Below are positions 13,664 through 25,088 of a stretch of DNA of 38,449 bases, piece by piece. The stretch covers positions 1,422 through 39,870 of the forward strand of contig JAJYRM010000027.1 in assembly GCA_021794075.1 (NCBI GenBank). The letters run 5' to 3'. The DNA comes from Bacteroidota bacterium. GTDB lineage: Bacteria > Bacteroidota > Ignavibacteria > Kryptoniales > JAKASW01. Every line of letters starts with the position of its first letter. Position 1 is the stretch's first letter. The position numbers were made by a program, and so were the translations under genes. The notes below the pieces were generated by a model. The model ran no database searches, was not told where the DNA came from, and saw only the letters and a list, made by a program, of their open reading frames with translations.

Positions 13664-15502
13664 ATGAAACGAACATTAATAATGTTTGTGCTCTTAGCGT
13701 CCGTATTTCTCACCAGACAAGCGTCGGCCCAGGTGTTCTTCACCGCCAGCCTTGGACCAGGACCTTCAGTGGTTTCAAACGGGACCGGAAGTGCGTGGGC
13801 CGTTCTGAACGTGGCGCAAAGATCACTAACATTCAGAATCACGTACGCTAAGCTAGACAGCACATTCACACACGCGCATTTTCATCTCGGTGCGGCAGGA
13901 ACGAACGGACCGGTAGTGTTTCCGCTCGACACGTTCTTTGTCGGCAACACCGCAAAGGGCACATGGAACAACATTCCGGACTCGTTGATTTCCGCCCTCA
14001 TGAAAGGCGACATTTATATAAACATTCATACGCTCAAATATCCGGCGGGTGAGATACGAGGTCAGTTGGAAGCCTCTCCCGACATGGGTATCTCCATGAG
14101 CTTAGACGGCTCGCAGGATGTTCAACCACTTCCTGTAGGGGGAACGGGAACCGGTTGGGCAATTTTCAACCCCGATTCCAACGTACTTTACTATCGGGTA
14201 ACTGTCGCCGGTCTTACATCGGGTATAACGGGCTCTCATTTCCACCTGGGTGCTGCCGGGACTAACGGCCCCGTCATCTTTCCATTTGCCATGACAGACA
14301 GTACCGCGACGGGCGAGTGGGCATTCCCCGACAGCATGTGGGCAAATCTCGTAACGAACCAGCTATACGTGAACATTCACACCCAGAAAAATCCAACGGG
14401 CGAAATTAGGGGCCAATTTACTTTGGAACCCACTTCAAATATTTTCCTTGACGCCTCCTTAGACGGAGCGAATCAGGTTCCCGCGGTAACTTCTAACGGC
14501 GCCGGGACGGCTTGGACAATCCTGACGGTAACTCCTTCGACCACTGATTCCTATGGGAACGAAATACCTGGCTCGGGCTCGATCAAATATCGACTAACTT
14601 ATGCCGACCTTGACAGCACATTCACCGCGGCACATTTCCACCATGGGGCAGCAGGGACAAATGGCCCTGTGGTTATGCCGATTACTACTTTTTCAGGCAA
14701 CAGTGCCCAGGGAACGTGGTCAAACATTCCTGACAGCCTGGTCGACGCGATGTTGAGCGGAGATATCTACTTGAACGTCCATTCATTGGCACACCCTGCC
14801 GGAGAAATCCGCGGTCAACTCATGAGAACCGACGGCATCCCATTCTCGATAAGTCTTTCGAGCAACCAGAGCGTACCCCCCATATCCACGACTGGTACCG
14901 GCACGGGATGGGCGGTCCTTGATACGACAGGCTCGAATCTCGATTACGCTATAACTGTCGCCACATTATCGTCGCCGCTCATTGCAGTGCATTTCCACAA
15001 TGGTCCCGCGGGAGTGAATGGTCCAGTCGTACAGCCGCTTTCGTACACCGCAACTGGCGTAGCCGGAATATGGACGTCGGTCCCTGACTCACTTATCCCA
15101 TCTATGCTTAGCGCGGGTATTTACTCAAACTTCCACACGACGGACCATCCTGCCGGTGAAATACGCGGACAGCTTATGCTTGACAACGGCTCGCTGACTG
15201 TTACCGCAATTGAGGAAGCACATAACAATACTCCTGGAACGTTTGCACTCGCGCAAAATTACCCGAACCCCTTCAACCCCACGACTATTATAAGCTACAG
15301 CGTCCCTTCAAAAGCGCAGGTCAGGCTGACGGTTTATAACATCCTCGGCCAAAGGGTAACAACACTCGTTGACGCCATTGAAAGTCCGGGGATGCACGAC
15401 GTCGTCTTCAACGGGGACCGACTCGCCAGCGGAGTCTATTTCTACAGGCTATCCGCGAACGGGAACACGTTCCTGACGAAGAAGATGGTTCTTCTTAAGT
15501 AA
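13664..15502 (+). CDS. Exported protein with four CHRD domains and a type IX secretion sorting domain
   Basis: A signal peptide (hydrophobic stretch, cleavage likely after RQASA) is followed by four tandem CHRD domains at about residues 23-132, 138-255, 263-390 and 398-508. Each carries the family pattern HFHxGxAGxNGPV, then SGDIYxNxHTxxxPAGEIRGQL. The C terminus (about 528-612) is a type IX secretion type-A sorting domain, with QNYPNPFNPTT, VRLTVYNILGQRV, LASGVYFYRL and a terminal TKKMVLLK. The protein is therefore predicted to cross the outer membrane by the type IX system and be released or surface-attached. The role of bacterial CHRD domains is unknown. It is the only plus-strand gene in the first 34 kb. 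The ribosome site is AGGAGGAG three bases before ATG. Confidence 0.92.
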   Translation: MKRTLIMFVLLASVFLTRQASAQVFFTASLGPGPSVVSNGTGSAWAVLNVAQRSLTFRITYAKLDSTFTHAHFHLGAAGTNGPVVFPLDTFFVGNTAKGTWNNIPDSLISALMKGDIYINIHTLKYPAGEIRGQLEASPDMGISMSLDGSQDVQPLPVGGTGTGWAIFNPDSNVLYYRVTVAGLTSGITGSHFHLGAAGTNGPVIFPFAMTDSTATGEWAFPDSMWANLVTNQLYVNIHTQKNPTGEIRGQFTLEPTSNIFLDASLDGANQVPAVTSNGAGTAWTILTVTPSTTDSYGNEIPGSGSIKYRLTYADLDSTFTAAHFHHGAAGTNGPVVMPITTFSGNSAQGTWSNIPDSLVDAMLSGDIYLNVHSLAHPAGEIRGQLMRTDGIPFSISLSSNQSVPPISTTGTGTGWAVLDTTGSNLDYAITVATLSSPLIAVHFHNGPAGVNGPVVQPLSYTATGVAGIWTSVPDSLIPSMLSAGIYSNFHTTDHPAGEIRGQLMLDNGSLTVTAIEEAHNNTPGTFALAQNYPNPFNPTTIISYSVPSKAQVRLTVYNILGQRVTTLVDAIESPGMHDVVFNGDRLASGVYFYRLSANGNTFLTKKMVLLK

Positions 15503-17296: not shown

Positions 17297-17845
17297 TCAT
17301 GCGTTCAATTTCGCAAACAATAGTTCCGAACACCTTGAACAGAGCCGGTTTGTTTTCACATCTATCTCTTCAACACCTGTGGAAGAATGCATCACACATA
17401 GATAATTGTTGCAGTGGAGCAAGCCGAACACGTGTCCGAGCTCGTGAGTTGATTCCTTGACAAGGCGTAGATTCAGCAAACTCGCGTCGGGCGCCAGGCC
17501 ATAATATTCATCGCGAAGCCTGTGAGACGAAACCACCGCTACTTTTCCCTCCAGCTGCGCTTCACCAAAAACATAGGTGAGTACCGGGACGAAGAGATCC
17601 CCTGCGGTAACCCCAAGAATCTTCCCATCGAAATCCTCGAACTTTTCCAGGAGCGACGTAATGAGAGAGGTAGAGGCGTATTGGTTCCTGGACAAGTTAA
17701 AGGCAAACGAACCGTCCAGCGGAACGTCACGCGTCACCTCCACCCGGCACCGGAAAGTCCCTGTCAGAGGCTTTGCGAGGGGTTGAAGGAGCGCGCGGTC
17801 GATAGGATTGATCGCTACGATTAGGATCGAAGAGGCGTTCGCCAT
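17297..17845 (-). CDS. amzA: Archaemetzincin family zinc metalloprotease
   Basis: The 182-residue protein contains the full archaemetzincin signature. The catalytic zinc site is H134, E135, H138 and H144 in HELGHVFGLLH. The family's cysteine-rich second site follows, with C145, C150, C169 and C172 (HCNNYLCVMH, then CSRC). The methionine of CVMH is the metzincin Met-turn. Length and motif match the compact prokaryotic archaemetzincins. There is no signal peptide, so it should be cytoplasmic; substrates of bacterial members are not known to me. The start is 18 bases after the stop of the sigma-54 response regulator gene, so it looks like the last gene of that two-component operon. Confidence 0.88.
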   Translation of the reverse strand: MANASSILIVAINPIDRALLQPLAKPLTGTFRCRVEVTRDVPLDGSFAFNLSRNQYASTSLITSLLEKFEDFDGKILGVTAGDLFVPVLTYVFGEAQLEGKVAVVSSHRLRDEYYGLAPDASLLNLRLVKESTHELGHVFGLLHCNNYLCVMHSSTGVEEIDVKTNRLCSRCSELLFAKLNA

Positions 17846-17863: not shown

Positions 17864-19240
17864 TTAAGCCTGAGGTTTCTTCAGCCCGTACTTCGATATC
17901 TTACTGTAGAGAGTCACGCGATCTATTCCCAGCGCCTCCGCGCTGTGGGTGATGTTCCAGCCGTGCTTCGTCAGCACTTTCGCGATATGGATTTTCTCCA
18001 TGCTCGTGATAAGGTCGTCCTGTTGGGCTTCCGTTTCCTGCAGCTGGGAAAGCTGGAAAGGAAGATCACCTGGCTTGATCGCGGGCGGCTTGGCGAGTAC
18101 CATGGCACGCTCGATGACATTCTCCAGTTCGCGGACGTTTCCCGGCCACCTGTTCCTGATAAGAAGATCCATCGCTTCAGAGTCTATCCCTACCGTTTGT
18201 TTGTTCATGAGTGTCGCGTACTTTTGGACAAAGTGGTTGACGAGCGGCGGAATGTCTACGCGCCTTTCTCTCAGTGGAGGGATGAAGATTGTAAAAACGT
18301 TGAGCCTGTAATAGAGATCTTCCCTGAAACTTCCGTCTCCTATCGCGGCTTCCAAATCCCGGTTCGTGGCGCAGATGACGCGGAAATCACTGGAGATCAT
18401 CTCATTGCCGCCCACCCTTGTGAATTGCTTTGTCTCAAGAACACGCAGGAGTTGCACTTGCATCTTCTGGCTGATCGTGCCAATCTCATCGAGGAAAATA
18501 GTTCCTCCGTCAGCCATCTCGAATTTTCCCTTCCGCCTGAACTGCGCGCCGGTAAAGGCCCCCTTCTCATGCCCGAAGAGTTCGCTTTCAAGAAGAGTCT
18601 CGGGCACAGCTCCGCAATTCACAGTAATTATGGGGAAGTATTTTCTGGCGGAGTTGGCATGGATGGTCCTCGCGACCAGTTCCTTCCCGGTGCCGCTTTC
18701 GCCGCGTATCATTACCGTCGTGTCAGTCTGCGCGACTGTCTTAGCGAGGTCGATGACCTTCTTCATTTGCGAACTCTCGCCGACAATATCCTCGACCCCG
18801 GACAGTTCCGACATCTGTTGACGGAGGCGCCAGTTTTCGTCCGTAAGCTTCTTTGTCCTCAGAGCGTTCTGGACAAGATGCGAAAGATGTTCAGGATCGA
18901 CAGGTTTTGTGACGTAATCGAATGCTCCTTCCTTCAGTGCTTGAACGGCGCTGTCGACCGCCGCAAAAGCCGTTATCATGATAACGGAAGCGCTCTTGTC
19001 GATCTCCCTGATTCTCTTTTGCAGCTCAAGGCCGTCCATGCCGGGCATTTTGATGTCGAGGAGTATGACGTCCCAGGGTCCATCGTTCATAAGCGTCAAC
19101 GCCTTGTTCGCGTTTTCGGCCGCTCCGACCTTGAAGCCGTCCTCCCTGAACCATTTGCTCAGCGAATCTCGCACCGACAGCTCGTCATCGACGATTAAGA
19201 TACTTGATTGAGAGCCCTTCTCACTGTTCGCCATGTTCAT
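17864..19240 (-). CDS. NtrC-family sigma-54-dependent response regulator
   Basis: A three-domain enhancer-binding regulator of 458 aa. The receiver domain (about 12-125) has acidic pocket D18/D19, phosphoacceptor D62 in LLDIKMPG, T90 and K112. The AAA+ domain (about 150-385) has Walker A GESGTGKE at 180-187, the sigma-54 contact loop GAFTGA at 227-232, Walker B IFLDE at 248-252 and the arginine-finger region. The C-terminal Fis-type helix-turn-helix (about 420-450) reads THSAEALGIDRVTLYSKI. All parts needed for sigma-54 activation are intact. It follows the histidine kinase with a 3-base gap and precedes amzA. Its likely target is the adjacent NrfD module, an inference from position. Confidence 0.95.
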   Translation of the reverse strand: MNMANSEKGSQSSILIVDDELSVRDSLSKWFREDGFKVGAAENANKALTLMNDGPWDVILLDIKMPGMDGLELQKRIREIDKSASVIMITAFAAVDSAVQALKEGAFDYVTKPVDPEHLSHLVQNALRTKKLTDENWRLRQQMSELSGVEDIVGESSQMKKVIDLAKTVAQTDTTVMIRGESGTGKELVARTIHANSARKYFPIITVNCGAVPETLLESELFGHEKGAFTGAQFRRKGKFEMADGGTIFLDEIGTISQKMQVQLLRVLETKQFTRVGGNEMISSDFRVICATNRDLEAAIGDGSFREDLYYRLNVFTIFIPPLRERRVDIPPLVNHFVQKYATLMNKQTVGIDSEAMDLLIRNRWPGNVRELENVIERAMVLAKPPAIKPGDLPFQLSQLQETEAQQDDLITSMEKIHIAKVLTKHGWNITHSAEALGIDRVTLYSKISKYGLKKPQA

Positions 19241-19243
19241 TTC

Positions 19244-20872
19244 TCAATTCTTCTTTACAGTTGCCAATAATGATTCGCCGGCCTTCTCCGGGTTCACCGG
19301 CAAGGAAATAGTGAACGTCGTCCCAATGCCTGGCTTGGAATCCACTTCAATTCTCCCGTTGTGCCGCTCGATTATGCCGTGGACGACAGCCAGACCAAGC
19401 CCCGTTCCTTTGCCGTCCTTCTTTGTCGTGAAGAACGGCTCGAAGATGTGCTCGAGGTCATCGTCGTTTATCCCGATGCCGTTATCCGTTACTTTTATTT
19501 CTATTTCATCACGGCCTTCAAGTTTCTTCATCGTAAGCTTTAGCGTACCACCACCTGGCATCGCCTCTATGGCGTTTATCTCCAGCGCGATGAGCGCCTG
19601 CTCGATCTGCTGCGGGTCGCAGATCGCTTCCACCGGGATCTCCGGGACATCGACCTCCGGCTTGACGTTGTTCATGGCCAGGTGATGCGCAATCAGCTTT
19701 AGACTTTGCTGTATGATCGGGGTTAAATTCTGAAGCTGGAATTCGCCTATCTTCTGCCTCGAAAAGAGGAGAAGGTTGTTGACGATATTGCCGCATCTCG
19801 CGCTCTCATCGGCAATCATGGATAATTCGTCGCTGATTCCTTTTACTCCATCGTCCGTCAGGTTACCCTTCGCGAGCTGCTTCTTAACCAGCTTGGCGTA
19901 AGCGAGGATACCGGCGAGAGGGTTGTTAAGCTCATGCGCCACGCTGGCGGCGAGCTTACCAAGCGAAGCCATTTTCTCCATCTGCACCATGTTGGACAGA
20001 GCCCTGCGAAGCTCGTCGGTCTTCTGCTCAACGCGGTCTTCAAGGGTTTGCGTCCATTCGGTCAGCTCATCCCTAGCCCTGCCTAGTTCTTCGGTCATCT
20101 TATTGAACGAATCGGCCAGGTCGCCGATCTCATCGGAAGAATGCACCCTGATCCTGTGATCCAGATTTCCCTTCGTGATCTCGTGAGTCCCCTCGGTCAA
20201 CCTCCTGACCGGTATGTTGACCATGGTCCATATAAAAATTCCCGCGAAGATCGTGACGCTCAGAACCATTAGCGCGCCCCCGAAGTATGAGTATTGTCTA
20301 AGTTGAACAAGACTGGCATCCATCGCTTTGAGCGGAAGCATAACGTCGAGCACTCCGAGGACAGTCTGATTGGCCGGATGTTCATGACATGGCGCTTTGT
20401 AACAGCTGGGTTCGTTCTTGATCGGTGTAATTACGCCTAGTACGCGATATCCCTTTGGTGAATAAAAAATTCTAGTCAGAGCTGCATTCCCGTTTGTCGG
20501 CAGCGCTTTCCCAGGCCTATGGCAAGCGTTGCACGCTTCGGCGTTCATATTTACATACTTACCCACTTCGCCGGCCACGGTGGAGTAAGTGATTTCGCCT
20601 TTCTTGTTGTAGATACGGATCGCCTGTATCCCTGGTTCGGAGCCAAGTGTATTGATTGTTCGGTAGATATCTTCCCTGCGGTTTTCCAGCATGCTGTAAT
20701 GCGTGGATCTCTTTATCAGATCGCTTGTGCGAAGGGCCCAATCGGTCGTAATACTGAGATACTTCTCGGTATGCCAATTCAACATGACGGCCGTGAAGAT
20801 AGCGGTGGCGACTATCATGACGAGAAGCACGATCACGAATAATCGAAAAGCCAGGTATCTGGTTATGCGCAT
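19244..20872 (-). CDS. Membrane histidine kinase with heme-c-type motifs in its periplasmic sensor
   Basis: The 542-residue kinase has two membrane spans (about 8-30 and 198-220) flanking a periplasmic sensor. The sensor contains CNACH at residues 114-118, a standard CxxCH heme-attachment motif, and CYKAPCH at 157-163, a CxxxxCH variant. A HAMP domain (about 217-270), a coiled coil, the HisKA domain with phosphoacceptor H313 in VAHELNNPLAG, and the ATPase domain follow (EINAIEAM, DNGIGI, FEPFFTTK, GTGLGLAVVHGI). The heme motifs suggest redox or gas sensing, as in related cytochrome-type kinases. It is the obvious partner of the sigma-54 regulator that follows after 3 bases. Confidence 0.93.
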   Translation of the reverse strand: MRITRYLAFRLFVIVLLVMIVATAIFTAVMLNWHTEKYLSITTDWALRTSDLIKRSTHYSMLENRREDIYRTINTLGSEPGIQAIRIYNKKGEITYSTVAGEVGKYVNMNAEACNACHRPGKALPTNGNAALTRIFYSPKGYRVLGVITPIKNEPSCYKAPCHEHPANQTVLGVLDVMLPLKAMDASLVQLRQYSYFGGALMVLSVTIFAGIFIWTMVNIPVRRLTEGTHEITKGNLDHRIRVHSSDEIGDLADSFNKMTEELGRARDELTEWTQTLEDRVEQKTDELRRALSNMVQMEKMASLGKLAASVAHELNNPLAGILAYAKLVKKQLAKGNLTDDGVKGISDELSMIADESARCGNIVNNLLLFSRQKIGEFQLQNLTPIIQQSLKLIAHHLAMNNVKPEVDVPEIPVEAICDPQQIEQALIALEINAIEAMPGGGTLKLTMKKLEGRDEIEIKVTDNGIGINDDDLEHIFEPFFTTKKDGKGTGLGLAVVHGIIERHNGRIEVDSKPGIGTTFTISLPVNPEKAGESLLATVKKN

Positions 20873-21053: not shown

Positions 21054-21872
21054 TTATTTTCGTCCCGAAAAAAGAACCTGGAGGAATGAGACATATCTTG
21101 AGGTGCCCAGAAGGTCCTTCAAGGTACGCGGACGAATCCCGCCGTCCATCATGGTCACGCCGAGAGAAGGCGGTCTGGCATCGAATTCCGTGAGGAGGTT
21201 CTGCTTCAACGACTTGAATTGTTCCTTGGAGAGGACCTCAATTGTTAAGGCATCTACACAAGTCGCGGCATTTTCGTCGAGACAAGATATCTCACAGATC
21301 CACCCCGCTCCGTAAGGATCCTGTCTGAGAATAGCCACTGACTCCATCACCTTATGATTCACGCTTTTAATCTTGCCGTCAACAGGCGATTGTATCGCGA
21401 TGGTCCCTTCTTCGCATGTCATCCAAGCGCATGGATTGTCTTTGAGGGTTGAGGTGCCGGTCTGAGGCAACACGACGCTCCCCACTCCTTCAAGAAGCCC
21501 GGCGGCAAAATGGTCAATCCCGACCTGGTAATTATTCGCCGCCGTCTTCTTCAACCAAACATGAGCATGAGAGTACATCCTGTCAGATGGAGGTTTCACG
21601 GAGAATGGCCCGCCGAAAATACCGCGTATCACATCGAGGAGCGAATCCTGTTTGACTCGCACCTTCGCGCCGGTCACATCCGAAGTGGATTTCGCTGTAC
21701 TGACAGACGCAGAGGCGGGAATCGACTTCTGACGCATCACCTGATCGAAGGGACATTCATCGCATTCAAAATTCCGGTCGCACAGCTTGTACGACACCAG
21801 GCCGGCATCGGCCCAGATGCAGTTCTGCTCACCTTCCGGAATCACCTTGCTTATCGTCTTCTTCTCTTCCAT
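21054..21872 (-). CDS. GcvH-like (degenerate lipoyl-fold) protein with an N-terminal cysteine motif
   Basis: The 272-residue protein begins with a cysteine motif (C18, C31, C37 and C40 in CIWADAGLVSYKLCDRNF and CDECPFD). After a linker comes a glycine-cleavage-H-like hammerhead fold (about 105-215), with AHVWLKK, YQVGIDHFA, IAIQSPVDGKIKSVN and DPYGAGWICEIS. The position of the lipoyl lysine (eight residues before the P of the SPVDG turn) is glutamate, so lipoylation is not expected. Near the C terminus it has GVTMMDGG, shared with the other GcvH-like protein of the cluster. I chose ATG at 21872 (AGAGGCGG upstream, 25 bases after the nrfD stop) over an upstream ATG that would overlap nrfD. Function is unknown; the context suggests an electron-transfer accessory. 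Confidence 0.75.
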   Translation of the reverse strand: MEEKKTISKVIPEGEQNCIWADAGLVSYKLCDRNFECDECPFDQVMRQKSIPASASVSTAKSTSDVTGAKVRVKQDSLLDVIRGIFGGPFSVKPPSDRMYSHAHVWLKKTAANNYQVGIDHFAAGLLEGVGSVVLPQTGTSTLKDNPCAWMTCEEGTIAIQSPVDGKIKSVNHKVMESVAILRQDPYGAGWICEISCLDENAATCVDALTIEVLSKEQFKSLKQNLLTEFDARPPSLGVTMMDGGIRPRTLKDLLGTSRYVSFLQVLFSGRK

Positions 21873-21897
21873 GCCACACCCGCCTCTGCTGAGTTGA

Positions 21898-23139
21898 CTA
21901 TTTTGCCTGCATCCCGAAGGAAGGTGCACCTTTGAGTTGGGCATCGTCTTCAATCAGCACGACCTCATAGCTCTCGGGCCTCACAGGTTCCTTTGCCGCC
22001 ACAGCCTCCGGAAAAACCGCGAGGTTCTTCGCGGCCCACGCGAAGGCTCCGAACCCGAGGGCGACCACCATAAGCGTTACTGAAACTTCCATCCAGCTCG
22101 GGAAGTAGGCGACGCCGTAATGTCTTTCAAGCGACGTCACGCTAACGTTCATCCTGTTCAAAACGAAACCGATCACCGCGAATAGGGCGCTGTAATACAA
22201 ACCGCGTTTGTTGTTCCTGATTTTCGGGATCACCAACATCGTAATCGGTATGATGACTCCGATCAGGATCTCCGCCCAGAAGAGCATTCCCTCTGTATTG
22301 AAAGTAAAGAGATAGGAAAATAGATGATAATTAATCATGTCTTCGACCCTGAGCACAAGATATACCGACAGAGCTACCGCGGTGACCTTGCCAAGCTTGG
22401 ACAATATCGGCATTTCAATCTCGCGATGGAATGCGCGCGAGCTGAAGAATGATTCCATTATCACCATAGCAGGCCCTACAGCCACTGCCGAGACAAAGAA
22501 GAGGAACGGAAGATTTCCCGTGTACCACAAAGGATATACCTTCTCAGGCATTACAAGATAGAGGGAGCCAAGCGAAGACTGGTGCAGCGACGACAACATT
22601 ATTCCCAAAATCACAAGTGGGACTATCATCTTATGAACAACTTCCGCGGCCTTATGCATATGAAACCGTTCAAACACCATCGGGCTGAATTCAAATGCAA
22701 GGACGGTCGTGTAGAGCATCACGCACCACGCGAGCTCAAACATGGGGGAATGCGGATTCCACATGACGAGCGGATGCCATATGTTCCATGGCCTCCCAAG
22801 ATCGTACATGAGGGCAAAGACGACCAGGACGTAACCGAGGAACGCGGTCAGAACTGCGGGTCTGGCAATCGGCTTATAGTAATCCAGATGGAAAACATAG
22901 ACCGCGCCGGCAACGACGAATCCGCCCGCGGCCAGTCCGACGCCGCAGAGGACATCGAAACCGATCCATATCCCCCACGGGAACTTGTCGCTCAGATTGG
23001 TAGCCGCGCCCAGGCCGTAGACGAACCTGACGTAGGTGGAATACAGACCGGCAACCACAAGCACAAGGAAGACGGACTTCCAGAATGTCATATGCCTGAA
23101 CCAATAGGCAATTCTCGATAAGACGCCGTTATTCCGCAT
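21898..23139 (-). CDS. NrfD/PsrC-family quinone-interacting membrane subunit
   Basis: A polytopic membrane protein of 413 aa with about ten hydrophobic segments, of the NrfD/PsrC/HybB type that exchanges electrons with the quinone pool. Typical features are KFPWGIWIGFDVLCGVGLAAGGFV in helices 2-3, YDLGRPWNIWHPLVMWNPHS and an acidic residue in helix 4 (FELAWCVMLY), and SSLHQSSLGSLYLV in a later helix. ATG at 23139 is preferred because GGAGGAAACG stands directly upstream. This start overlaps the end of the 4Fe-4S gene by 11 bases, so the two are translationally coupled. The partner is the FeS protein upstream. No molybdopterin subunit is present nearby. Confidence 0.9.
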   Translation of the reverse strand: MRNNGVLSRIAYWFRHMTFWKSVFLVLVVAGLYSTYVRFVYGLGAATNLSDKFPWGIWIGFDVLCGVGLAAGGFVVAGAVYVFHLDYYKPIARPAVLTAFLGYVLVVFALMYDLGRPWNIWHPLVMWNPHSPMFELAWCVMLYTTVLAFEFSPMVFERFHMHKAAEVVHKMIVPLVILGIMLSSLHQSSLGSLYLVMPEKVYPLWYTGNLPFLFFVSAVAVGPAMVIMESFFSSRAFHREIEMPILSKLGKVTAVALSVYLVLRVEDMINYHLFSYLFTFNTEGMLFWAEILIGVIIPITMLVIPKIRNNKRGLYYSALFAVIGFVLNRMNVSVTSLERHYGVAYFPSWMEVSVTLMVVALGFGAFAWAAKNLAVFPEAVAAKEPVRPESYEVVLIEDDAQLKGAPSFGMQAK

Positions 23140-23935
23140 CGTTTCCTCCGCTCGTTTGATCTTTGTCTTCGATTTCGGCTGGTGGGATATTCCCGCTCTG
23201 CAGCTCCTTCTCGTATTCGGCAACCTTCTTCTTCCGATTTGTGAGCCACCAGAACCCCGCCATCAACGTACTCCCCCAGACGAAATAGTCCGGGATCTTT
23301 TCCATAATGTCCCAGGTGTACTTGGGCAGCGCTCTCTTCGGCAAATTGGTTGGGAAGCCGAGCTTTCCGAAGTCCACTCCGGCTAGATAAATGGTCGAAG
23401 TGCCTCCAACCTCGGTCGTGCCAAATACGTGCTCGTTGTATGTCCCCGGATTATTTTTTATTCTTTTCTTTGCTTCGTCGATGAGGTCATCACGATAGCC
23501 GAATATCCGGGCCTGGGCGGGGCAAGCTTCAACGCACGCCGGCTGCTTCCCTTCCAATTGCCTCGGATAACACATGTCACACTTGGTTACCTTCGGAGCG
23601 GGCTTGTTCCATTGGTACTTAGGAATCTGGAACGGACAGGCCTGCACGCAATATCGGCATCCCATGCACTTGTTTACATCATAGACAACAGGTCCTGCCG
23701 CGGTTTTCTGAATTGCTCCCACCGGGCAGACGGACGCGCAAGTCGGCTCTTCGCAGTGCATGCAGAGTTTCGGCACGTACGTTTGACCATATTGTTGGAC
23801 GACTGTATTCTTTTCACACGACAGCTCGTGCACATCCGTATGTGGGAAGCCCCATCTGTCTGCGCATGCGTCCTCACAAGCCATGCAGCCGATGCATTGC
23901 GTCGTGTCTACTAAAATTCCTACCTGCTTTTTCAT
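23129..23935 (-). CDS. Four-cluster 4Fe-4S ferredoxin-type subunit with C-terminal membrane segment
   Basis: This is an electron-wire subunit of the HybA/DmsB/NrfC type. Sixteen cysteines fall in four groups for four 4Fe-4S clusters: C14, C17, C20, C24; C58, C61, C66, C70; C90, C93, C96, C100; and C119, C122, C134, C138. A hydrophobic segment near residues 222-240 (FVWGSTLMAGFWWLT) followed by RKKK could anchor it. There is no Tat or Sec signal at the N terminus, unlike HybA. The C-terminal tail is acidic. AAAAGGA stands upstream of the ATG. It overlaps the NrfD gene by 11 bases, and together they would form a quinone oxidoreductase core. Confidence 0.9.
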   Translation of the reverse strand: MKKQVGILVDTTQCIGCMACEDACADRWGFPHTDVHELSCEKNTVVQQYGQTYVPKLCMHCEEPTCASVCPVGAIQKTAAGPVVYDVNKCMGCRYCVQACPFQIPKYQWNKPAPKVTKCDMCYPRQLEGKQPACVEACPAQARIFGYRDDLIDEAKKRIKNNPGTYNEHVFGTTEVGGTSTIYLAGVDFGKLGFPTNLPKRALPKYTWDIMEKIPDYFVWGSTLMAGFWWLTNRKKKVAEYEKELQSGNIPPAEIEDKDQTSGGNDAE

Positions 23936-23976
23936 CTTGAATGTCCTTTTCCTGTTAACGACTGAGATTTAGCTGA

Positions 23977-24672
23977 TCACTTTCCATTTCCAGATCCAAG
24001 GAAATCGGTCTCGAATCTTCGCCAGATTTCCTGTGAAGAGTGTTCCATCACGTCGTTAACCGGCGTGCCACCATCCATGAGAGTCACGCCAGCGGGCGCC
24101 GTCGCACCGGAAGAGGCAAGAGCTTCCGTCTGAGCAGTAATGAAATTCCTGAACCTTTTTATCTCTTCCTTAAGCCAGAGTGCGGCCTCATTACCGATGG
24201 AGAGCTGCTTGATGTCGGCCGCTAGATTTGTCGGCTCAATCATCAGCACCCATCCTCCCTTATACGGCTCCTGCCGCACAACACCGGGAGAGTGCGCAAG
24301 ATCATCATTGATCGCGACCACTCTACCTGAGATCGGAGCGCGAAACGAGACCTCTTTCCCTCCCTGTCGCAGAGTGAAGAGCTTATCTCCCTTTTGCACA
24401 ACGGTGTTTGCCGGAATGAGCTCAACCCCGCTGACCGGCCCCAGAATTTTTTGGACGAAATCATCCAGCCCGACGCGCGTCAGTCCATCCGGGAGGAGTT
24501 CAACCCAAGTGTGCCCTCTTCCGAAAAAATATCCTTTGGGAATAATGAACCTGGGCTTTGTGGAAACGCGGGCGGCGGGAGCAAGTGCCGCCTTACGTTT
24601 CGCGGCCCGCTGCACGAAATAATCGATAGACAAGAAAACGATTATTGTCGCGACTACAAACAACGCAACCAT
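23977..24672 (-). CDS. Membrane-anchored GcvH-like protein
   Basis: The 231-residue protein has an N-terminal transmembrane helix (about residues 2-19, VALFVVATIIVFLSIDYFV) followed by a basic stretch (QRAAKRKAA). A GcvH-like hammerhead fold comes next (about 45-150), with GHTWVELLPDGLTRVGLDDFVQ, LFTLRQGGKEVSFRAPISGRVVAIN and PYKGGWVLMIEP. The residue aligned with the lipoyl lysine is glycine; the nearby lysine is one position off, so lipoylation is doubtful. The C terminus carries GVTLMDGG, shared with the second GcvH-like protein downstream. ATG at 24672 is preferred because AGGAGG lies six bases upstream. It is the first gene of the FeS-NrfD cluster. Its role is unknown. Confidence 0.75.
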   Translation of the reverse strand: MVALFVVATIIVFLSIDYFVQRAAKRKAALAPAARVSTKPRFIIPKGYFFGRGHTWVELLPDGLTRVGLDDFVQKILGPVSGVELIPANTVVQKGDKLFTLRQGGKEVSFRAPISGRVVAINDDLAHSPGVVRQEPYKGGWVLMIEPTNLAADIKQLSIGNEAALWLKEEIKRFRNFITAQTEALASSGATAPAGVTLMDGGTPVNDVMEHSSQEIWRRFETDFLGSGNGK

Positions 24673-24747: not shown

Positions 24748-24769
24748 GAATCACTACATGTAGTAGTTC
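24748..24769. promoter_or_regulatory. 22-bp dyad upstream of the NrfD cluster
   Basis: The core ACTACATGTAGT (24753-24764) is a perfect 12-bp palindrome. It is flanked symmetrically by GAA and TTC, two bases out on each side. It lies 76-97 bases upstream of the first start codon of the cluster, a suitable place for a dimeric regulator. The cognate protein is not known. Confidence 0.45.
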
Positions 24770-24875
24770 AATTAGTGTTCCGAAACGACAAAGATGGCAC
24801 AGAAAAAGTGTGTGCGTAACTATCGAGATGTTGGTAGATTGTCGTGGCGGGAAAAACAGCAGCGTGCGTTTGAGA

Positions 24876-25000
24876 GTTCAACCGTGAACCACAGTTGAAT
24901 CGTTCAACAGGCAAAATAGGTACGATGTTGAATATCCGCTGAAATTAGTCAGAATCCCACAAAGCGGTGGATTGAGATATTCAACGCCAGGTGTTTAACA
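24876..25000. repeat. Cluster of GTTGAA/TTCAAC half-sites, candidate enhancer sites
   Basis: Half-sites seen are GTTCAAC at 24876-24882, then GTTGAATCGTTCAAC at 24894-24908 (a near-perfect 15-bp palindrome). GTTGAATATC at 24927-24936 has its exact inverse GATATTCAAC at 24976-24985. A degenerate TTTAACATC ends at 25000. The cluster sits about 200-330 bases upstream of the first gene of the NrfD cluster, a normal distance for sites bound by NtrC-type activators. Binding by the adjacent regulator is a guess from position. Confidence 0.45.
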
Positions 25001-25088
25001 TCTCAGCGAAATTCCACCAAAGGCGGATCAGGGCTGGACAAATCTGGAAATTTCTAAAGAATCGAGAGAGGGAGTCAATCCAAAATCT

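Follow-up and report, generated by a model that had tools for sequence, protein, structure and literature searches.

A seven-gene operon around an FeS/NrfD pair

We analysed a 38,449-nucleotide stretch of contig JAJYRM010000027.1 (the window) from a Bacteroidota bacterium of the class Ignavibacteria (assembly GCA_021794075.1), in which two GcvH-like proteins are encoded together with an electron-transfer pair and a two-component system. As the original prediction had stated, four co-directional genes, all backed by Pfam, lie on the minus strand and encode a first GcvH-like protein (GcvH1), an iron-sulfur (FeS) protein, an NrfD-type membrane subunit and a second GcvH-like protein (GcvH2), and the FeS and NrfD genes overlap, sharing 11 nt (Table 1). 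The four genes had been taken for the whole cluster; the operon proved to be longer, since a 181-nt gap after GcvH2 is followed on the same strand by genes for a sensor histidine kinase (HK), a response regulator (RR) and an archaemetzincin (M54), with spacings of 3 and 18 nt. The start codons of the first four genes were refined from the sequence. This arrangement is not a product of chance, since many families of the class, and KSB1 as well, show the same gene order.

Table 1. Features of the operon and of the region upstream of it, in window coordinates.
Feature	Position	Strand	Size	Evidence
GcvH1	23977..24672	-	231 aa	ATG start at 24672; Pfam GCV_H 71 bits (cut-off 22.2)
FeS, 16-Cys ferredoxin-type subunit	23129..23935	-	268 aa	ATG start at 23935; Pfam Fer4 domains
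NrfD-type quinone-interacting membrane subunit	21898..23139	-	413 aa	ATG at 23139; Pfam PF03916 85 bits
GcvH2	21054..21872	-	272 aa	ATG start at 21872; Pfam GCV_H 60 bits (cut-off 22.2)
Cys4 motif segment inside GcvH2	21729..21830	-		Pattern YKLCD[RN]
Sensor histidine kinase (HK)	19244..20872	-	542 aa	Pfam HAMP, HisKA, HATPase
Sigma-54-dependent NtrC-type response regulator (RR)	17864..19240	-	458 aa	Pfam Response_reg, Sigma54_activat, HTH_8
Archaemetzincin (M54) metalloprotease	17297..17845	-	182 aa	Pfam Peptidase_M54 80 bits
Candidate -24/-12 (sigma-54-type) promoter TTCGGAACACTAATTGA	24768..24784	-		Aligned in relatives; sole exact match in the window
Four GTTGA-N5-TCAAC-like dyads (0-2 mismatches), candidate regulator sites	24868..25007			Motif scan

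GcvH is known as a lipoyl carrier. Both GcvH-like proteins were predicted to keep its fold: the AlphaFold 2 model of GcvH1 (mean predicted local distance difference test score, pLDDT, 83.5; Foldseek match 3a7l, E 3.7e-12) consists of a helix at residues 2-30 followed by the GcvH fold, and the AlphaFold model of GcvH2 (pLDDT 78.9; Foldseek match 1onl, E 5.3e-12) has the H-protein fold. One of the pair had been described as membrane-anchored, which holds, the anchor being the N-terminal helix of GcvH1. GcvH2 bears in addition an N-terminal Cys4 segment (C-x-W..LC..C..C) that is absent from the earlier description; it forms the low-confidence part of the model, and its Cys18, Cys31, Cys37 and Cys40 are invariant in homologues. 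In the column of the lipoyl lysine, the window GcvH1 has Gly and GcvH2 has Glu. Lysine stood there in 7 of 185 GcvH-like homologues, being absent from the other 178, and in none of the 58 GcvH2 homologues aligned; this alignment has some slack, and about half of the GcvH1 sequences have lysines close by. Against the GcvH equivalog TIGR00527 the two proteins scored 62 and 59 bits, below the cut-off of 115.85, and a canonical GcvH is encoded on a different contig of the same genome. Since the lipoyl lysine is gone while the H-protein fold has been retained, the GcvH-like proteins are not lipoyl carriers.

Related loci and the catalytic partner

A search of 296 genomes of the phylum with the window NrfD (E 1e-20) gave matches in 43. 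We distinguished three types of locus. Type A has the layout of the window, in the order GcvH1-FeS-NrfD-GcvH2-HK-RR-M54, and spans several families; by coincidence it also numbers 43 loci, drawn from the phylum matches and from named loci outside the phylum, a few from near-identical genomes and some close to contig ends. GcvH1 was present in 41 of them, GcvH2 in 37 and the kinase in 38. In type B, two GcvH-like genes enclose those for a molybdopterin (Mo) subunit with a signal for twin-arginine translocation (Tat) and for a five-CxxCH cytochrome; a paralogous locus of this type lies on contig 78 of the window's own genome (L006:7063-17916), and one of its GcvH-like proteins has an N-terminal Cys-rich part with CPFLxxxxVxxC repeats. 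Type C, found in related Ignavibacteria, consists of FeS, NrfD and a 13-haem cytochrome, a haem kinase and two proteins that fuse a receiver to a GcvH-like domain. These fusions have no DNA-binding domain, and the longer one begins with a membrane helix like that of GcvH1. From the positive charges after the N-terminal helix and from the type-C receiver domains, established topology rules would place the GcvH-like domain in the cytoplasm.

Several loci showed further rearrangements. Type-A and type-C operons stand head to head in L063, L064, L109, L116 and L132, so that two haem-kinase systems adjoin, and a genome of the same genus has a second FeS-NrfD copy whose neighbouring GcvH2 fragment contains an internal stop, which marks it as a decaying duplicate (L044; G259:C4:12550-12753). 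In G243, a type-A NrfD shares its contig with kinase and regulator, and GcvH1 and GcvH2 sit together on a second one (contigs 5 and 84; L051), indicating that the operon link can be broken within a genome.

Named genomes were also scanned with the Cys4 motif of GcvH2, using ten closer motif sequences because the full set of 18 was too diverse, and 75 loci were found in several phyla. KSB1 and Syntrophales hold type-A-like sets, whereas in planctomycetes the order is GcvH2-GcvH1-FeS-NrfD, with a 12/13-haem cytochrome next. NrfD was absent at 40 of 73 Cys-motif loci, although some of these are short and NrfD may lie past the contig end; 21 have at least 3 kb on each side. Most NrfD-less loci belong to Desulfobacterales, where the kinase has no haem motif, and one, from Blastocatellia, has both GcvH1 and GcvH2. 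HK, RR and M54 accompany the GcvH-like gene at 33 of the 40, which makes the signalling cassette the constant company of the Cys-motif GcvH and the quinone module one association among others. In five Desulfobacterales loci (L134, L140, L145, L148 and L164) the HK-RR-M54-GcvH set adjoins an FAD/NAD(P)-type oxidoreductase of about 1,350 aa, with Cys motifs at its start and GltD/HdrA-like by eye. Because many Desulfobacterales HK/RR/M54 sets with a GcvH-like gene lack NrfD/FeS, and because of the receiver fusions in Ignavibacteria, the GcvH-like proteins belong with the signalling side of the operon. Their expected co-occurrence with the NrfD/FeS pair thus holds in part: they go together in type A, while one GcvH type also occurs without it.

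The claim that the NrfD/FeS unit has no linked catalytic subunit was borne out. The window encodes no Mo, NiFe or hydrogenase protein, and the kinase is its sole CxxCH protein. Within 7 kb, a Mo subunit was found at none of the 43 type-A loci and a multihaem cytochrome at 14. Among these 14, six have tetrahaem c554-like cytochromes beside the operon genes, five owe the cytochrome to a neighbouring type-C operon and one has it fused to NrfD. As to whether a cytochrome or Mo subunit ever joins the unit, type A never has the latter, while some homologous loci, from planctomycetes, KSB1 and types B and C, hold one or the other nearby. Lack of a partner thus characterises this lineage and not the whole family, since the type-B set includes both a Mo subunit and a five-haem cytochrome, and 13-haem cytochromes occur in other relatives. 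Unlinked candidates were also sought in the own genome. No [FeFe] hydrogenase was found, linked or unlinked; matches to the [NiFe] profile PF00374 were partial, at both profile ends, on contig 116; and the Mo matches were solely a NuoG-like protein and the paralogous type-B subunit. In genome G200, which has a type-A locus, the Mo match was NuoG-like only and neither hydrogenase type was found. An unlinked Mo, [NiFe] or [FeFe] partner enzyme is thus unsupported in both genomes. The own genome does hold a c554-like gene on contig 169, unlinked to the operon.

Topology, haem motifs and upstream region

The best NCBIfam matches were all sub-threshold: HmcB (236 bits, cut-off 420) and HybA (206, cut-off 263) for FeS, and HmcC (328, cut-off 550) and a HybB-type profile (308, cut-off 450) for NrfD. 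The window NrfD has 10 predicted transmembrane helices, and its loop charges place both termini inside, a pattern identical across types A, B and C. An inverted NrfD as the cause of an FeS protein without a Tat signal was rejected, the loop charges being alike in all types. In KSB1, a type-A NrfD (L104:8289-9851) continues at its C-terminus through an extra transmembrane helix into a domain with three CxxCH motifs, which favours a periplasmic acceptor. FeS ends in a conserved hydrophobic membrane tail followed by positive residues. This tail is alike in all homologues, including those of Syntrophales, Planctomycetota and type C, which carry a Tat signal. The own genome encodes TatC, and the type-B FeS protein, which is also Tat-less, adjoins the Tat-tagged Mo subunit.

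The extracytoplasmic part of the kinase holds two predicted haem motifs, CxxCH and, about 45 residues on, CX4CH, which sit on the periplasmic side between its two membrane helices. With few exceptions both are kept in the haem-type kinases of types A, B and C. A Pfam search with the window kinase at E 0.001 gave no hit to the DUF3365 profile. The archaemetzincin motif HEXXHXXGX3CX4CXM...CXXC was intact in 87 of 88 homologues. By alignment, relatives share a GG-N10-GA/GC element upstream of GcvH1. Of 19 dyad matches in the window, four fall within the 140 bp given in Table 1, and similar dyads occur upstream in relatives L092, L093 and L095. Promoter element and dyads, a pattern noticed after the fact, would fit an operon under sigma-54 control through the regulator it encodes.

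Further away, positions 13664-15502 encode a protein in which similar segments of the form HFHxGAAGxNGPVV... GEIRGQL, CHRD-like by eye, are repeated, and whose C-terminus is a sorting-type tail with NYPNPFNP.

A putative redox switch and its relation to known systems

Our favoured reading, which we hold with moderate confidence, is that the seven genes link a haem-sensing two-component cassette to an HmcBC/HybAB-like quinone module whose electron partners are unlinked c-type cytochromes. NrfD would exchange electrons with the menaquinone pool near the membrane's outer face, in either direction, and the tail-anchored FeS protein would relay them between NrfD and periplasmic c-type cytochromes encoded elsewhere, as in modules of the HmcBC/HybAB kind. 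Both GcvH-like proteins would act as cytoplasmic, non-lipoylated adaptor or effector domains between the signalling proteins and the membrane module. Together with the kinase, the regulator and the archaemetzincin, they may let redox state, either that of the module or that of the cytochrome pool, govern the operon, and the same link possibly controls the quinone complex itself. We also suggest, tentatively, that the GcvH-fold domain, having lost lipoylation, has turned into an output domain for two-component signalling. In type C the haem kinase would phosphorylate membrane-anchored receiver-GcvH proteins with a direct effect on the quinone:cytochrome module, and in type A the domains would play this part as separate adaptors; this would amount to post-translational redox control of a respiratory complex. 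Altogether, the data point less to an ordinary respiratory enzyme than to a redox switch assembled from recycled metabolic parts.

Several observations weigh against this proposal. No multihaem cytochrome lies within 7 kb at 29 of the 43 type-A loci. None of the 43 type-A FeS proteins has a Tat signal, and no Tat-bearing exported partner is linked to FeS in the window, which leaves its periplasmic placement unexplained. The proposal must also suppose a contact between the GcvH-like proteins and the FeS/NrfD module. In most relatives the candidate promoter ends in GA and not in the usual GC, and the perfect dyad occurred five times in the own genome against four for a reversed-pattern control; with no enrichment over the reversed pattern, a genome-wide regulon based on the exact dyad was dropped. 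Lastly, the NrfD tree joins long branches, so that the direction of evolution is unsure and the tree was not used for it.

Of the other explanations, a pure quinone-pool sensor and an FeS subunit working on the cytoplasmic face are the main rivals. The FeS-NrfD pair might be non-respiratory and report the state of the quinone pool to the haem kinase, directly or via GcvH, with the sigma-54 regulator acting on the result. Such a pure sensor fits the fact that most loci have no dedicated acceptor while the haem kinase is nearly always present, as well as the periplasmic haem motifs and a signalling cassette more widespread than its NrfD link. We nevertheless consider it rather unlikely, since the in-operon tetrahaem cytochromes, the 13-haem partners and the NrfD-cytochrome fusion indicate electron flow to cytochromes. 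Alternatively, the type-A FeS protein could be cytoplasmic, docked at the inner face of NrfD and exchanging electrons with cytoplasmic partners including GcvH2. The lack of a Tat signal throughout type A, as opposed to its presence in Syntrophales, Planctomycetota and type C, and the conserved Cys4 segment of GcvH2 speak for this arrangement. It appears improbable, however, because the positive cluster in the FeS tail matches that of Tat-tagged homologues, favouring an outside N-domain, because the orientation of NrfD is unchanged and because, in a KSB1 type-A locus, an extra membrane helix joins NrfD to a haem domain.

The missing Tat signal could also mean that the module serves an unlinked Tat-exported enzyme, with which FeS hitch-hikes through the membrane, a route presumed for the FeS protein of an [FeFe] hydrogenase locus, which is likewise Tat-less and tail-anchored (PMC10924467). 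The pairing of a Tat-less FeS protein with a Tat-tagged Mo subunit in type B and the presence of TatC agree with this, but the enzyme inventories of the own genome and of G200 described above offer no obvious partner of this kind, and we judge the idea quite doubtful. Finally, the original prediction had suggested that the GcvH-like proteins may stand in for a catalytic or adaptor subunit; in its strong form they would replace the catalytic one, carrying a lipoyl-type group as LbpA does. LbpA shares the GcvH fold and cooperates with a redox complex during sulfur oxidation (PMC6067878). The strong form is highly improbable and already contradicted by the sequences, in which the lipoyl lysine that LbpA strictly conserves is gone; the predicted cytoplasmic location and the 40 of 73 Cys-motif loci without NrfD/FeS also oppose it.

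If the proposed coupling of signalling cassette and quinone module is true, a GcvH fold kept without its cofactor site and placed in haem-based two-component signalling beside a quinone module would be a signalling adaptor of a new class. A bacterial archaemetzincin would then gain a plausible setting, and the action of a sensor kinase on a membrane electron-transfer complex could be put to the test. Should phosphotransfer be shown, the receiver-GcvH fusions could be a new kind of two-component output. The tail-anchored FeS protein without a Tat signal is a topological puzzle. The parts are known, and we did not find their combination described: a literature search of partial coverage, hence weak evidence, returned nothing on GcvH near NrfD, on receiver-GcvH fusions or on an M54/kinase cassette.

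Among described systems, the Hmc complex of Desulfovibrio shares the FeS and HybB/NrfD-type pair, HmcB and HmcC being the best NCBIfam matches, and the type-C and planctomycete relatives likewise place a 13-haem cytochrome beside this pair. In contrast, the window locus lacks HmcA, D, E and F, the window has no high-molecular-weight cytochrome, the scores (236/420 and 328/550 bits) fall far under the HmcB and HmcC equivalog cut-offs, and the operon adds GcvH-like proteins, kinase, regulator and protease to an FeS protein without a Tat signal. HybA and HybB of hydrogenase-2 also combine a tail-anchored FeS protein with a 10-helix NrfD-type subunit, but the window has no [NiFe] large or small subunits and scores under the HybA and HybB-type cut-offs. 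Modules of Mo/W enzymes (Psr, Qrc type) differ by the molybdopterin-fold subunit, found at 0 of 43 type-A loci. Tail-anchored ferredoxin/quinol oxidase modules resemble the locus in their tandem C-tail FeS and HybB/NrfD genes, often with c-type cytochromes, and differ in that the window FeS has neither a Tat signal nor a linked exported partner; the paper on these modules (PMC10924467) says nothing of GcvH-like genes. LbpA of the sHdr system is likewise a GcvH-fold protein tied to a redox complex, but it accompanies Hdr-like genes and, unlike the window proteins, keeps the lipoyl lysine (PMC6067878). The sCache_heme sensors share with the kinase an extracytoplasmic sensor domain with a c-type haem motif CxxCH on a signalling protein (PMC12889525), while the window kinase has a second motif, CX4CH, and no DUF3365 match in Pfam. 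The paralogous type-B locus differs from the window by its Tat-tagged molybdopterin subunit and five-CxxCH cytochrome, and shares with it a pair of GcvH-like genes together with FeS, NrfD, haem kinase, sigma-54 regulator and archaemetzincin.

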